64,000 nucleotides of DNA from Elusimicrobia bacterium GWA2_51_34 (GTDB lineage: Bacteria > Elusimicrobiota > Elusimicrobia > Elusimicrobiales > UBA9959): assembly GCA_001799565.1 (NCBI GenBank), contig MGTS01000006.1, positions 6,585 through 70,584 on the forward strand, given 5' to 3'. The notes under the pieces were generated by a model. That model was not told where the DNA came from. It searched no databases and saw nothing but the letters and a program-made list of their open reading frames with translations. The translations under genes were made by a program, and so were the position numbers. This document shows positions 41,721-57,202 of the stretch, in pieces. The stretch's first letter is position 1, and each line of letters begins with the position of its first letter.

Positions 41721-42731
41721 TCAGGAACCCCTTTCTATTTCTTTTGTCATTGCCCTTGTGAGTTTGAGACTTCCCACAAAATCCCTTCCGGCGCCGCCCA
41801 TCAGCCGGGCCAAAATGGAGAGCCGCGCGGCCAGGCCCGAAGCAGCGGATACCTCAGGGCCGAAAACAAATTTTTCGTGTAAAAATTTAAGCGCGTCCAG
41901 CTCTTTTAACAGCTCAAAGGCCGGCAGCGGATCTTTCTCGGAAAGCAGTTTTAAAAGCTCGTTGCGCAGACGTTCGCGCGAGAGCAGCGAAGGCATCTCG
42001 GTTTTTACAGCCTCAATTGCCAGCCGGTAAGTTTTTGTTTCAAGCTTCCAGCCGAAACGACCCGCGAAGCGGGCCGCGCGGTAAAGGCGGGTAGGGTCGT
42101 CAACAAAACTCCGTTCGTGCAAAACTCTCAATACGCCTTTTTTAATGTCGTCTGCTCCGCCGCAGGGATCAAGAAGTTCCCCGAAGCCGGGCCCCGGCAA
42201 AAGCGAAACAGCAAGCGCGTTGCAGGCGAAATCGCGCCGTTTTAAGTCCTCGGCAGCCGAAACCGCGCGCGATACCGAGGGCAACGCCGCGGGTTTTAAG
42301 TAGGATTCTTTTCTAAAAACGGCAAAATCCAGCCGCCGGCCATCGGCTAAAAACAGCCGGGTGGTCAGAAACCGCTCAAAAGTTGTGACCCCACCACCTG
42401 CTTGCCCGACTTTTCCGCCTGAGGCAGATCCGCCGAGTTGTTTGGCGGAGGCGGGCCCTGCCGGTCCCGAAGCGGGTGGTGGGGTGACTCTGGCCTGTCG
42501 CGGGCCTATGGCGCTGTCCGCGACTGAAGAAACGCCGCCAGGCTTGACTGTGAGCTCCGATACCAGAGCCTTGGGGTCCGCGCCGCAAAGGAAATCTATA
42601 TCCGCGCTTGTAACGCCCAACAGCCAGTCACGCACGCAGCCGCCCACGGCGTAAAGCTCAAAGCCAAGGCGCCTGGCCGCTTCACCCGTTTCACGCAGGA
42701 AAGCCAGATCATTCAAAGGTTCTAAGTTCAT
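41721..42731 (-). CDS. cca: CCA tRNA nucleotidyltransferase with in-frame insertion
   Basis: Read from the ATG at 42731 the protein has 336 residues. The nucleotidyltransferase head has YAVGGCVRDWLLG and the metal pair in SADIDFL, then FACNALAVSL and the RNA-binding neck VDDPTRLYRAARFAGRFGW. It adds or repairs the tRNA 3' CCA end. About 40 residues between the head strands (RVTPPPASGPAGPASAK to VGQAGGG) are low in complexity and encoded by a palindromic element (42385-42488). The C-terminus is shorter than in long-form enzymes. Because head and neck motifs are intact, it is probably active. Confidence 0.88.
   Translation of the reverse strand: MNLEPLNDLAFLRETGEAARRLGFELYAVGGCVRDWLLGVTSADIDFLCGADPKALVSELTVKPGGVSSVADSAIGPRQARVTPPPASGPAGPASAKQLGGSASGGKVGQAGGGVTTFERFLTTRLFLADGRRLDFAVFRKESYLKPAALPSVSRAVSAAEDLKRRDFACNALAVSLLPGPGFGELLDPCGGADDIKKGVLRVLHERSFVDDPTRLYRAARFAGRFGWKLETKTYRLAIEAVKTEMPSLLSRERLRNELLKLLSEKDPLPAFELLKELDALKFLHEKFVFGPEVSAASGLAARLSILARLMGGAGRDFVGSLKLTRAMTKEIERGS
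42385..42488. repeat. Palindromic element inserted in frame in cca
   Basis: Arms 42385-42401 (GTGACCCCACCACCTGC) and 42472-42488 are inverted repeats with two mismatches. Inner hairpins include TCCGCC/GGCGGA around GAGTTGTTT. The length keeps the cca frame open, and the encoded Pro/Gly/Ala-rich peptide sits between conserved strands of the enzyme. Part of the inner sequence is shared with the intergenic palindrome at 35239-35270. Confidence 0.8.
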
Positions 42732-46924: not shown

Positions 46925-47600
46925 GCAAAACTGCCATACGCCATAAGCCGTAGGCCATAGGCTTTTTAAGGAAGCTCCTTATGGAATAAGATTTTTGCGT
47001 ATGGCTTATAGCCTAAGGCTTATGGCAATAGCCGTATCTAAAACTTGCGGCGATAGCCGTACCTTAAATTTTCAGACTGCGGACTGTACCCCGAATTCTG
47101 TCCCCCCCCGCACTTTTTCCGAAAGGGCTAAAGTGCGGGGGATGGAGGACCATTTATCTTGTGCGGCCCACTCTGCGCTGTCCCGCCCTTTTGGCCCAAT
47201 GTTGATCCAAAAGGGCGGGACGGGACGGGCTATCCATAGCGCATATTTGGCCTTGCTTCAGGAGGGGCTTGCCCTGCCCCCCCCCCTCTTTTTCTTACGG
47301 AAAAATTGGGGGGGGGCGGTGCGCTCTTACCGCACCTTTTCACCCTTACCCTTGCGGGCGGTATGTTCTCTGTGGCGCTGTCCGTCGGCCGGGGATATGG
47401 CCCCGGTCTCCCGGCCTATGGCCGCTTAACGGCTTTAAACCGGCACCCTGCCCTGTGAAGTTCGGAAGTTCCTCCCCTCCCTTGCGGGAAGAGCGGCCCT
47501 CCGTCCGCAGTCTAAAATTTAAGGTACGGCTATTGCCATAAGCTATGCGGCTGTTCCAGCCGCGCCGTATGCTTTAGGCCATAAGCTTTTAAGGAGTTCT
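46925..47600. repeat. Multi-hairpin repeat island
   Basis: The island has nested layers. Positions 46925-47040 are a word-repeat hairpin (GCCATAAGCC words; core complement at 47021-47039). Positions 47056-47084 and 47503-47530 are 28-bp inverted repeats with one bulged base. Inside are 47105-47116/47130-47141 (AAAGTGCGGGG stem), 47180-47194/47207-47221 (perfect 15 bp), a C10/G9 pair at 47277-47286/47308-47316, and GGTGCG/CGCACC at 47318-47336. A partial core copy lies at 47525-47540. No credible gene exists across about 750 bp. Confidence 0.88.
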
Positions 47601-54771: not shown

Positions 54772-54868
54772 AAAGAGTGAAGCGTAAAGGGCGAATAGTA
54801 AAAAACCGCAGTGTTTGTTTCTCACCATTTATCCTTACGCTCCTTACGCTTCACACTTTACCCTTTCC
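54772..54868. repeat. Word-repeat hairpin (GGTAAAGAGTGAAGCGTAA)
   Basis: GGTAAAGAGTGAAGCGTAAAGG at the left faces CCTTACGCTTCACACTTTACCC at the right, giving a stem of about 20 bp with a few mismatches. It fills the gap between ptsH and the IID gene. Confidence 0.8.
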
Positions 54869-55860
54869 TAAAGGACGAAGGGCTTGAGTTTAAGCGCCCA
54901 AAAAAGAAAAAGTGAAACCGAAAGAATCAGGCCGATTACAAAAAAAACAGAACGGCCTGATTTGTGAGCCACGCGGTGAACCGCTAAAACGCTGAGCGGC
55001 AGGCCAAGGCGAAGAGCAAGATCGGGCCCCGGGCGCATGTGACTGTTAAAAGCTGTTGACAGGGCGAAAGCCGCCAGCACTATCATCAGAGAAAAAGAAA
55101 AACCCAGCACGCTGAGGCGCCTTATAAAACGGGACCAGTTCATGGCTTCAAGACCGCAATTTGAAGCGCCGCCGCATTCAAAACCCAGTTTTACGCCCTT
55201 CCAGCGCCAGTAAACGGCAAAAAACGAATAAACCGCCACCCCCGAAACAGGACCAAGCATGATCAGCCAAAGAGATGGCATTTCCCGGCCGGAGATAAAC
55301 AGCCAACCGTAAAAGCCGCCAAGAATCCACACTATCAGACAGACCTGGGTTGTCATTGGCTTAAGGCGTCCCCAAAAAATTCTGTCGCCTATCGCCGCAA
55401 AGCTTGAGGCGAGGGCTTGTTTTACCTCAGCCGCAGTTTTTATGGCTTCCTCATTTTCAGGCCCGGCCGCCAGCTTCTCCTCCATTTTTGCCACATTCCC
55501 AAGAATAAAACCCGCCATATACGGCTGTGTGTTGAAAAACCCTAAATTCCGCAACAGAGCCGAGGAAAATCTTTCAGTCGCGGACAGGTCTGCTTCGCTT
55601 GGCAACAGCTTCGCAGGACCATGTTCCTCCGAAGCCTTGGCGAAGGAGGACAATCCGCCTAAGGCGGAACAGGCCCCGCCTTTTTGCCCGATGCTGTTTA
55701 ACTCTGTTGGCAAAAGGGCGGGGCAGGCCAGTGGCACAGTCACGCCATACGCTTTACGCAGCGCCGGGAGCAAAGCGAAAGCAAAACCCACATTCTGGTT
55801 GCGCTCGTAATTCCAGCCCGCCTGTATGAAGAAAGACCGTAAAAACATTGAAAAAAGCAT
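54868..55860 (-). CDS. Mannose-family PTS IID component with in-frame insertion
   Basis: The 330-residue protein opens FFIQAGWNYERNQNVGFAFALLPALRKAYG. After an unusual stretch it resumes RFSSALLRNLGFFNTQPYMAGFILGNVAKMEE, which is typical IID. In the family these parts are normally about 15 residues apart; here about 50 extra residues (VPLACPALLPTELNS to PSEADLSAT) intervene, encoded by hairpins at 55625-55724. The C-terminal half has membrane segments (VCLIVWILGGFYGWLFI; VLGFSFSLMIVLAAFAL). It forms the sugar channel with IIC. The sugar cannot be told. Confidence 0.9.
   Translation of the reverse strand: MLFSMFLRSFFIQAGWNYERNQNVGFAFALLPALRKAYGVTVPLACPALLPTELNSIGQKGGACSALGGLSSFAKASEEHGPAKLLPSEADLSATERFSSALLRNLGFFNTQPYMAGFILGNVAKMEEKLAAGPENEEAIKTAAEVKQALASSFAAIGDRIFWGRLKPMTTQVCLIVWILGGFYGWLFISGREMPSLWLIMLGPVSGVAVYSFFAVYWRWKGVKLGFECGGASNCGLEAMNWSRFIRRLSVLGFSFSLMIVLAAFALSTAFNSHMRPGPDLALRLGLPLSVLAVHRVAHKSGRSVFFVIGLILSVSLFLFWALKLKPFVL
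55625..55724. repeat. Tandem hairpins inserted in frame in the IID gene
   Basis: Three stems follow in order: TCCTCC/GGAGGA (55625-55650), TCCGCCTAAGGCGGA (55654-55668), and a 16-bp stem with one mismatch (55673-55688 with 55709-55724). The last stem (GCCCCGCC...AAAAGGGCGGGGC) closely resembles the hairpin at 47180-47221 in the intergenic island, including part of the loop. The frame stays open through it. Confidence 0.8.
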
Positions 55861-55871
55861 AATAATGACCA

Positions 55872-55960
55872 GTCTGAGCGTCTGGGAGTCTAAGAGTCTG
55901 AGAGTCTGAAAGTCGGGGAGTCTGCGACTCTGTGACTCTTTGACTCTACGACTCCAAGAC
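55872..55960. repeat. Word-repeat hairpin (GAGTCTAAGAGTCTGAGAGTC)
   Basis: Five or six GAGTCTG-type words (55884-55923) face CTGCGACTCTGTGACTCTTTGACTC (55922-55955), the complementary word. It lies between the IID and IIC genes. Confidence 0.8.
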
Positions 55961-55967
55961 TTCCCTC

Positions 55968-56582
55968 TTACCCTCTCTTATACATCTGCGTCCTGAATCT
56001 GAAATAAAGCCCGCTTAAACCCAGCCAGGGCATCAGAGAGTAAGCAAAATTCATGGCGGGCGTAAAGGTCTCAAGCTGAAAAATACCCCCCGCTAACACC
56101 ACGGCGGCGGAAAAAGAAAAAACATAAATAGAAACCACCGCGCTTTCCCCAAGCAGAGCGCCTGCTATCCAGTAGTGCAACCGCTCCCGGCCCGCCTTAA
56201 TTTCAGTTTCAATAACGCCATTGCGGCGCGAACGGGAGGAACGCAGCCTGTGTTCAACAAAAGAATACATTCCCCCGGCTAATAGTCCCGTGAAAAAGGC
56301 GAGTGACGGCGCGACCCCCGCCCAGGCGTGCGCGAGCACCCCCACAGCGGCTGCCACTACGCCGTTCGGGGGCACAACCCCGCCCACCGGGATAAAGTCG
56401 ATATATATGAGCTCAATTAAAATGCCAAGGCGCGCGCCTTCAAGAACGCAGCCGTTTAAAGCGCCAAGCAGCGGCCCTACAAGGGCCGGCCGCGACAGAA
56501 GGAACTGCCCCGCCTGGACAGAATCAAGTTCCAACAGCCCCGCGAGTGAACTTGAGATAAGAGCTTTTAAAATTAAAATCAT
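55968..56582 (-). CDS. Mannose-family PTS IIC component
   Basis: Read from the ATG at 56582 the protein has 204 residues. The 20 residues read from 56642 are translated repeat sequence (GLLASQQKSAKR) and are excluded. The IIC signature is present: LLELDSVQAGQFLLSRPALVGPLLG and GILIELIYIDFIPVGGVVPPNG, with six or so membrane segments. It forms the translocation channel with IID. It is a little shorter than usual at the C-terminus. Confidence 0.88.
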   Translation of the reverse strand: MILILKALISSSLAGLLELDSVQAGQFLLSRPALVGPLLGALNGCVLEGARLGILIELIYIDFIPVGGVVPPNGVVAAAVGVLAHAWAGVAPSLAFFTGLLAGGMYSFVEHRLRSSRSRRNGVIETEIKAGRERLHYWIAGALLGESAVVSIYVFSFSAAVVLAGGIFQLETFTPAMNFAYSLMPWLGLSGLYFRFRTQMYKRG

Positions 56583-56639
56583 AAAATAGAATAATCGCTT
56601 TGCCGATTTTTGCTGGGATGCTAGTAAACCAGAAGACAA

Positions 56640-56722
56640 CACTGCTGGTAGGCTAGTAGGCTGGTATGCTTTCTGTGGAGTTCCTAAATTAGGCCTACAA
56701 GCATACCCGCCTACCAGCGCCC
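56640..56722. repeat. Word-repeat hairpin (TGGTAGGCTAGTAGGCTGG)
   Basis: CTGGTAGGCTAGTAGGCTGGTATGC pairs with GCATACCCGCCTACCAGC across a loop holding CTGTGGAGTTCC. It lies between the IIC and IIB genes, near the start of the IIC frame. Confidence 0.8.
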
Positions 56723-57202
56723 CTAGCTTATCGCCTCAATAAGATTTAACGGGCCGTCTGAAGGCACACCGCGGCCCTCCATAACAACGCCGGAATCGGA
56801 AAGAAAGCGAAGCGCCGCGCAATCGGCGTCGTTTAAGAAAATAGCCCTGCCTATGGACAGGTTTTTTCCGGCCGAGTAATGCATGCCGCCCACATTAAGC
56901 CTGGAAATTTTTACGCCTTTTTTAATAAGCTCAACCGCCTCAGCAAGCCCCGGCAGCAGAACGAGAATATTCGGGCCGCGGGCGTCCGCCGCCGACAGGT
57001 AGGCTGGCGCTTCGCTCAGGGGCAGTATTCTTAAGGCTATGTCTTCCGGCGCGGCAAAGCGCATAATGGTCTGGCGCATCAAATCGCGTGATAAGTCGTC
57101 TGAAACGACTGCGATTTCACCCGCCTTCAGGTACGGCACCCAGGCCTCCACCACCTGGCCATGCACCAGCCGGTCGTCTATGCGGTAAAGTGTTATGGGC
57201 AT
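56723..57202 (-). CDS. Mannose-family PTS IIB component
   Basis: The 159-residue protein begins ITLYRIDDRLVHGQVVEAWVP; His14 in RLVHGQV is the phosphate acceptor from IIA. KISRLNVGGMHYSAGKN is the second family motif. It is cytoplasmic and passes phosphate to the sugar at the IIC/IID channel. Confidence 0.95.
   Translation of the reverse strand: MPITLYRIDDRLVHGQVVEAWVPYLKAGEIAVVSDDLSRDLMRQTIMRFAAPEDIALRILPLSEAPAYLSAADARGPNILVLLPGLAEAVELIKKGVKISRLNVGGMHYSAGKNLSIGRAIFLNDADCAALRFLSDSGVVMEGRGVPSDGPLNLIEAIS

Follow-up and report, generated by a model that had tools for sequence, protein, structure and literature searches.

Where do the additional residues come from that interrupt the PTS mannose/fructose/sorbose-family IID protein of Elusimicrobia bacterium GWA2_51_34, and why is the gene still open? 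The gene lies in a stretch of 64,000 nucleotides (the window, to which positions refer unless a locus is named) of a 2.6 Mb draft genome in 43 contigs. Its uninterrupted 330-aa frame was assigned to Pfam EIID-AGA (E 6e-30), and IIC and IIB genes (Table 1) as well as genes reading as IIA, HPr and EI are located nearby. IID and IIC are separated by 8-bp tandem repeats (AGTCTGAG / TCTGCGAC) at 55871-55954. In an initial annotation, a single palindromic element of about 50 residues, encoded by three successive hairpins at 55625-55724 and inserted in frame, was proposed and compared with the palindromic elements of Rickettsia. The best-known in-frame palindromic elements are those of Rickettsia and Wolbachia, two genera in which genome decay and host dependence obscure why they reside in genes. 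In the gene described here, the 54 extra residues were very probably added in two or more successive steps, each the insertion of a small, non-autonomous palindromic mobile element; one of these elements (element A) is mainly protein-resident.

Table 1. Position of the IID gene, its insert and the component repeats in the window.
Feature	Position	Strand	Basis
PTS mannose/fructose/sorbose-family IID gene (330 aa, insert carrier)	54868..55860	-	ORF, Pfam PF03613, homologues in 80 relatives
Whole insert, 162 nt / 54 codons, net versus orthologues	55580..55741	-	orthologue alignment
3' arm of D-family element (TGTC/CGCGACTGA); A interrupts at TGTC/CGCGA	55574..55586	-	comparison with L025, L030
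Direct repeat CAGTC, 5 bp, two copies	55575..55579 and 55737..55741	.	sequence comparison
GACA (minus strand TGTC), presumed target duplication of A, one copy	55583..55586	-	junction table, covariation
Element A unit, 66 nt / 22 codons, CTCCTTCGCC...GACCTGTC, reads SSFAKASEEHGPAKLLPSEADLS	55583..55648	-	23 cores in genome
GACA (minus strand TGTC), presumed target duplication of A, second copy	55649..55652	-	junction table, covariation
Small palindrome C (TCCGCCTAAGGCGGA)	55654..55668	.	many copies elsewhere in sampled genome
Element B hairpin, 52 nt	55673..55724	.	17 exact-pattern copies in own genome
5' arm of D-family element (GTGCCACTGGCCTG)	55724..55737	-	D family 31 copies; same arm in L025, others
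PTS IIC gene, IID cluster	55968..56642	-	Pfam PF03609
PTS IIB gene, IID cluster	56723..57202	-	Pfam PF03830

The in-frame palindromic insertion proved to be real, and its edges were set by alignment of related IID proteins. Residues ~1-45 and ~93-330 align with the homologues and nothing aligns between them in 80/80 relatives; the insert follows ...LRKAYG and precedes ERF..., and the region encodes the peptide LLPSEADLSATER. The net size of 54 residues or 162 nt was obtained from an alignment with 27 relatives and UBA9634 (L015, labelled Elusimicrobia bacterium). The insert exceeds the initial description in size, and the interval proposed for the element was too narrow. The two congeners have an exact in-frame gap at this point, and the identity of IID to these same-genus genomes is 73-76% (residues 95-330). 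The solved ManZ chains also break here, the step from query 38 to 95 corresponding to residues 49 to 52 of 7xno_Z (a three-residue step). Location in a surface loop is weakly indicated. An AlphaFold model of IID was poor (pLDDT 64, pTM 0.43; no PDB match), placing the insert as the part of lowest confidence between helices 18-37 and 93-105, with residues 44-72 least confident, and it was therefore not used as surface-loop evidence.

At the DNA level, only 1/200 dinucleotide shuffles of the 171-nt region folded as well as or better than the native sequence (z -2.8). An inverted-repeat search under an ungapped rule reported none for the insert, to which such a search is probably blind because of loops and internal bulges. 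The CAGTC pair at the borders was considered as a target duplication of the whole insert and dropped, because D copies elsewhere also carry GACTG at their end.

A search of the own genome with a 201-nt query from the insert gave 47 places, mostly as two blocks, and the sequences recur in many other genes. Instead of one element, the insert is a nested composite with parts of three repeat families, comprising the outer arms of D, the hairpin of B and the unit of A. Four hairpins are present and not three, namely B, the small C palindrome and two bulged hairpins within the 66-nt A unit. B is a 52-nt hairpin with conserved stem and variable loop, occurring in variants besides the exact copies, and folds on the gene strand into an RNA stem of ~-27.6 kcal/mol. 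D is a 42-bp family. When A is removed at TGTC/CGCGA, the IID sequence reads on like the B-containing copies L025 and L030, which are free of A; A therefore landed inside an earlier element. The opposite nesting, D within A, was observed in RecN (L113/L194) and in a hybrid histidine kinase (L125/L196). The net length of 162 nt is the sum of 96 and 66 nt, each a multiple of three.

Several further copies were recorded. Comparison of L025:7971-8060 with window 55648-55737 revealed the B loop in inverted orientation with its D and C flanks unchanged, as a flip of the hairpin would produce. At window 42485-42527, a 42-bp copy of D is located amid further palindromes (42400-42530), where a spanning gene was not found, and a degenerate B-like hairpin (CCCGCCCTTTTGG...CCAAAAGGGCGGG) at window 47182-47219. 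Element B is also present in frame within TsaD (L160:701-1924), whose Pfam domain extends over 335 residues for 262 model positions.

The same IID loop carries a separate insert in genome G015 (L041), which consists of three hairpins of unrelated sequence and was nearly unique in a repeat test (one weak second match in the G015 genome). In G004 (L045), a B-like palindrome (CCCCGCCCTTTTTCCAAAAGGGCC) is inserted in frame at a second IID site. Both cases support the view that the IID loop tolerates inserts and that such insertion may be general in the family. The G015 protein has a second small insert, LRLRSGQAG, further downstream.

For element A, a pattern census gave 23 cores in the own genome and 0 with the reversed control pattern. 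Gene contexts of repeats were taken from sampled genome stretches and locus flanks. 21 of the cores are in frame in ORFs extending across them, with coding-like flanks on both sides, 13 being read as DGSASLNNSFAGPRPFEALAKED and 8 as SSFAKASEGRGPAKLLLSEADPS. Two of these adjoin in TatD as a tandem array with a 66-bp period, so that about 20 genes are affected, the majority coding for enzymes that can be recognised. The exceptions are L123, which is without a gene, and L109, which is probably situated at the boundary of a VWA and a TPR gene. Most hosts were assigned by Pfam, to PheT, RecN, DNA polymerase I (PolA), TatD, Mur ligase (MurF), QueG, peptidase M3, GH57, alpha-amylase, carbamoyltransferase, radical SAM methylthiotransferase, a PASTA protein, a TPR protein, glycosyltransferase and others; L115 had no match and L117 a beta-helix match only. 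In L107, A is near the N-terminus with a short left flank and is bracketed by the orthologues. A further palindromic insert of 36 nt, a multiple of three, is present inside the hairpin of a second A copy of the radical SAM gene (L108 / L022:13933-14037).

Clean empty sites were present in same-genus orthologues from two congeners for 11 of 13 hosts examined, at identities of 67-90%; in PolA (L118, partial element) and TatD (L119) a clean empty site was not seen in the congeners. B and D are mostly intergenic, unlike A: in-ORF copies amount to 21/23 for A, about 5/18 for B and about 9/31 for D (Fisher A versus B 4e-5, A versus D 5e-6). Coding density is ~80% in the sampled stretches by a crude ORF count, and A is therefore not depleted from genes.

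The junctions of A follow a strict rule. Among 28 usable copies, the left tetranucleotide is CGTC in 22, TGTC in 3, CATC in 2 and CGCC in 1, with a background frequency of CGTC in the window of 0.3% of positions. The right end has the same tetranucleotide in a more decayed form. Where position -4 on the left is T, the right flank has T as well in 3/3 copies versus 1/25 (p 0.001), and where -5 is G, it agrees in 2/2 versus 0/26 (p 0.003); this covariation is carried by five loci. In the orthologues of L112, L114, L122 and L126, C/TGTC occurs once at the site, compared with two copies in this genome. Read most simply, A is probably an element of 62 nt whose insertion duplicates about 4-5 bp of target, giving a total of 66 nt. 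An imperfect 9-bp similarity of its ends (CTCCTTCGC / CTGCTTCGC; also written CTCCTTCGC / GCGAAGCAGACC) was read from the sequence.

A was found in 5/341 Elusimicrobiota genomes, belonging to one family and four genera; two congeners are without A. Copies in G015 and G034 have 93-94% identity to the consensus, the IID proteins of these genomes are 56-61% identical to the IID described here, and the A hosts examined in them differ from the genes hit in this genome. It is likely that A spread horizontally in recent time, or else an old family would have been recently active independently. In GHMP kinases (read as IspE) of G015 (L175) and G152 (L176), A is located in a similar region in different orientation and frame. 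In G007, G017 and G024 (genus g6), the matches, in several copies, mostly cover only about 28 nt of A, its first hairpin, and may represent a smaller element related to A. Phage, plasmid and IMG/VR collections gave no match, and Rfam gave weak eukaryotic miRNA matches only, far below gathering scores.

Variation of the IID loop within the family (L041, L045) might recall an ancestral loop, with residues of a common ancestor that were lost by the relatives; this is otherwise a logical possibility alone. Homologues with the same residues, named in the initial annotation as the mark of such a loop, were sought in the 80 relatives and found in none, and the DNA is made up of repeat families that recur at unrelated places in 23, 17 and 31 copies, which leaves this origin next to no probability. 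An assembly or binning artefact is conceivable for a draft genome in 43 contigs and is extremely improbable given inserts that keep the frame, flanks that match same-genus orthologues at 67-90% and the occurrence of A in other genera. A more serious contender concerns the mode of insertion, namely HUH transposition (Y1/RAYT, IS200-like) at a fixed tetranucleotide, a mode that has been proposed for GTAG REPs and leaves the target unduplicated. The genome has six Y1_Tnp genes, the junction tetranucleotide is strict, hairpins lie near the ends of A, and the tandem copies in TatD have a 66-bp period. However, scanning for A and B detected neither within about 1.5 kb of the six Y1_Tnp genes, so that mobilisation of A by RAYT was unsupported, and HUH insertion predicts neither a tetranucleotide at both ends nor covariation of the deviating copies. 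This mode is thus regarded as unlikely. With these loci covered, neither a transposase nor an autonomous relative was found. Under the preferred reading, insertion with target duplication, A would be moved by a transposase acting in trans.

Residence in frame could also mean that the A peptide serves its hosts as a selected linker or tag, for which copies would be retained. Of the six frames, four are open in most A copies, and the 21 in-frame copies of this genome use two only, a restriction that at first sight suggests strong selection. A reading that mainly takes this restriction as proof of protein-level selection was nevertheless rejected. GACG in sampled genes is in Asp codon phase in 1337/1809 cases, 79% would be expected in the two used frames from the codon phase of CGTC/GACG alone (21/21 then has P = 0.007), and a third frame is used in the GHMP kinase of G152 (L176). 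Target choice, mostly of the Asp (GAC) codon, therefore explains most of the bias, with a lesser share for protein-level selection. The hosts are moreover unrelated (tRNA synthetase, nuclease, peptidase, PTS) and the congeners lack A in these proteins, which makes a useful peptide very unlikely. Variants of A with a longer inner stem differ in length by 15, 18 or 36 nt, all multiples of three.

The origin of the insert by successive mobile-element insertions can be reconstructed as follows. A D-type element with B and C hairpins in its centre very probably entered IID in a first step (net 96 nt, 32 codons), and A (62-nt core plus 4-nt target duplication; 66 nt, 22 codons) entered a TGTC inside this element in a second step. 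Both insertions are placed where homologues have just a short turn, and since both are multiples of three and introduce no stop, the frame survived. More generally, A inserts at YGTC (GACR on the other strand), probably duplicates about 4-5 bp and adds 22 codons, the frame being preserved because 62 + 4 = 66 nt. It would be tolerated because its commonest genic target is the Asp codon GAC, the phase is open and the insert reads as a small polar linker, and it is presumably neutral for the host proteins. Whether A is adapted to life in proteins is a further step, put forward here tentatively and with some doubt: its target and 66-nt length would yield frame-preserving, stop-free linkers, by which it could multiply in housekeeping genes and cross genera without killing hosts.

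Among known systems, bacterial MITEs resemble A in being short and non-autonomous with target duplication, and MITE in-frame fusions occur. Duplication by A is indicated at few loci, by flank covariation at -4 and -5 and by the single copy in four orthologues. A may differ from MITEs in its ends, which share the imperfect 9-bp similarity, and in having no known parent transposon. PARCELs (PMC2996958) are likewise protein-coding palindromic DNA of patchy, probably horizontal distribution, but form tandem domains of dedicated repeat proteins, whereas A forms single inserts in housekeeping enzymes. GTAG REPs with RAYT share with A small palindromes, grouped copies and Y1_Tnp genes in the genome; A has YGTC junctions and no GTAG tag, the Y1_Tnp genes are without A or B, and A is genic whereas GTAG REPs are extragenic.

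The parallel to Rickettsia drawn at the outset, to elements of another lineage and another sequence, was supported. Like A, RPEs (RPE-1 etc.) are palindromic, non-autonomous and patchy among relatives, and they reside in frame in many unrelated genes, to which they add a peptide of tens of residues. R. conorii has 44 RPEs, nearly half of them within ORFs (review PMC10969869), with CGTC at one end (PMC3733652). A corresponds to RPEs functionally by its in-frame position in many unrelated genes (21/23 cores), orthologues without the segment (IID 80/80; other hosts 11/13) and hairpin-forming palindromes according to the folds. It is set apart by description, with a different phylum, 66 nt instead of ~150 bp, YGTC on both sides, signs of target duplication and 21/23 copies intragenic.

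CGTC-tagged REPs, which include RPE-4 and RPE-6 and whose intragenic members reside in DNA synthesis/repair genes and tRNA synthetases, are 20-40 bp long, have stems of 8-9 bp starting with AT, loops of 4-5 nt and a tail resembling CCA, and were listed for five phyla, Elusimicrobiota being absent (PMC3733652). As in A, their CGTC terminus is often changed to TGTC, grouped copies encode 20-30 aa, and a dedicated transposase is not known (PMC3733652). A has the corresponding end, with CGTC at 22/28 left junctions and TGTC at 3, and has it on both sides. It departs in size, stem, loop and tail, the unit being 66 nt long, with two bulged hairpins within 62 nt, a CTCC start and neither AT start nor CCA tail. 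Since A shares the CGTC end, deviates in these other traits and occurs in an unlisted phylum, it would represent, as compared by description, a new family that works like RPEs and intragenic CGTC REPs and is a member of neither. In the set of papers searched, titles and abstracts contained no earlier report of palindromic elements in Elusimicrobiota.

A is of such recent date that empty sites, target and duplication are still legible, and the mostly intergenic B and D serve as controls from the same genome. It offers a testable answer to the question of residence in essential proteins, consisting of a target codon, a length that includes the duplication, and open frames. Extra loops in proteins from such draft genomes need a repeat check before an insertion is called functional. 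With element A, a phenomenon best known from Rickettsia is extended to a new phylum, Elusimicrobiota.
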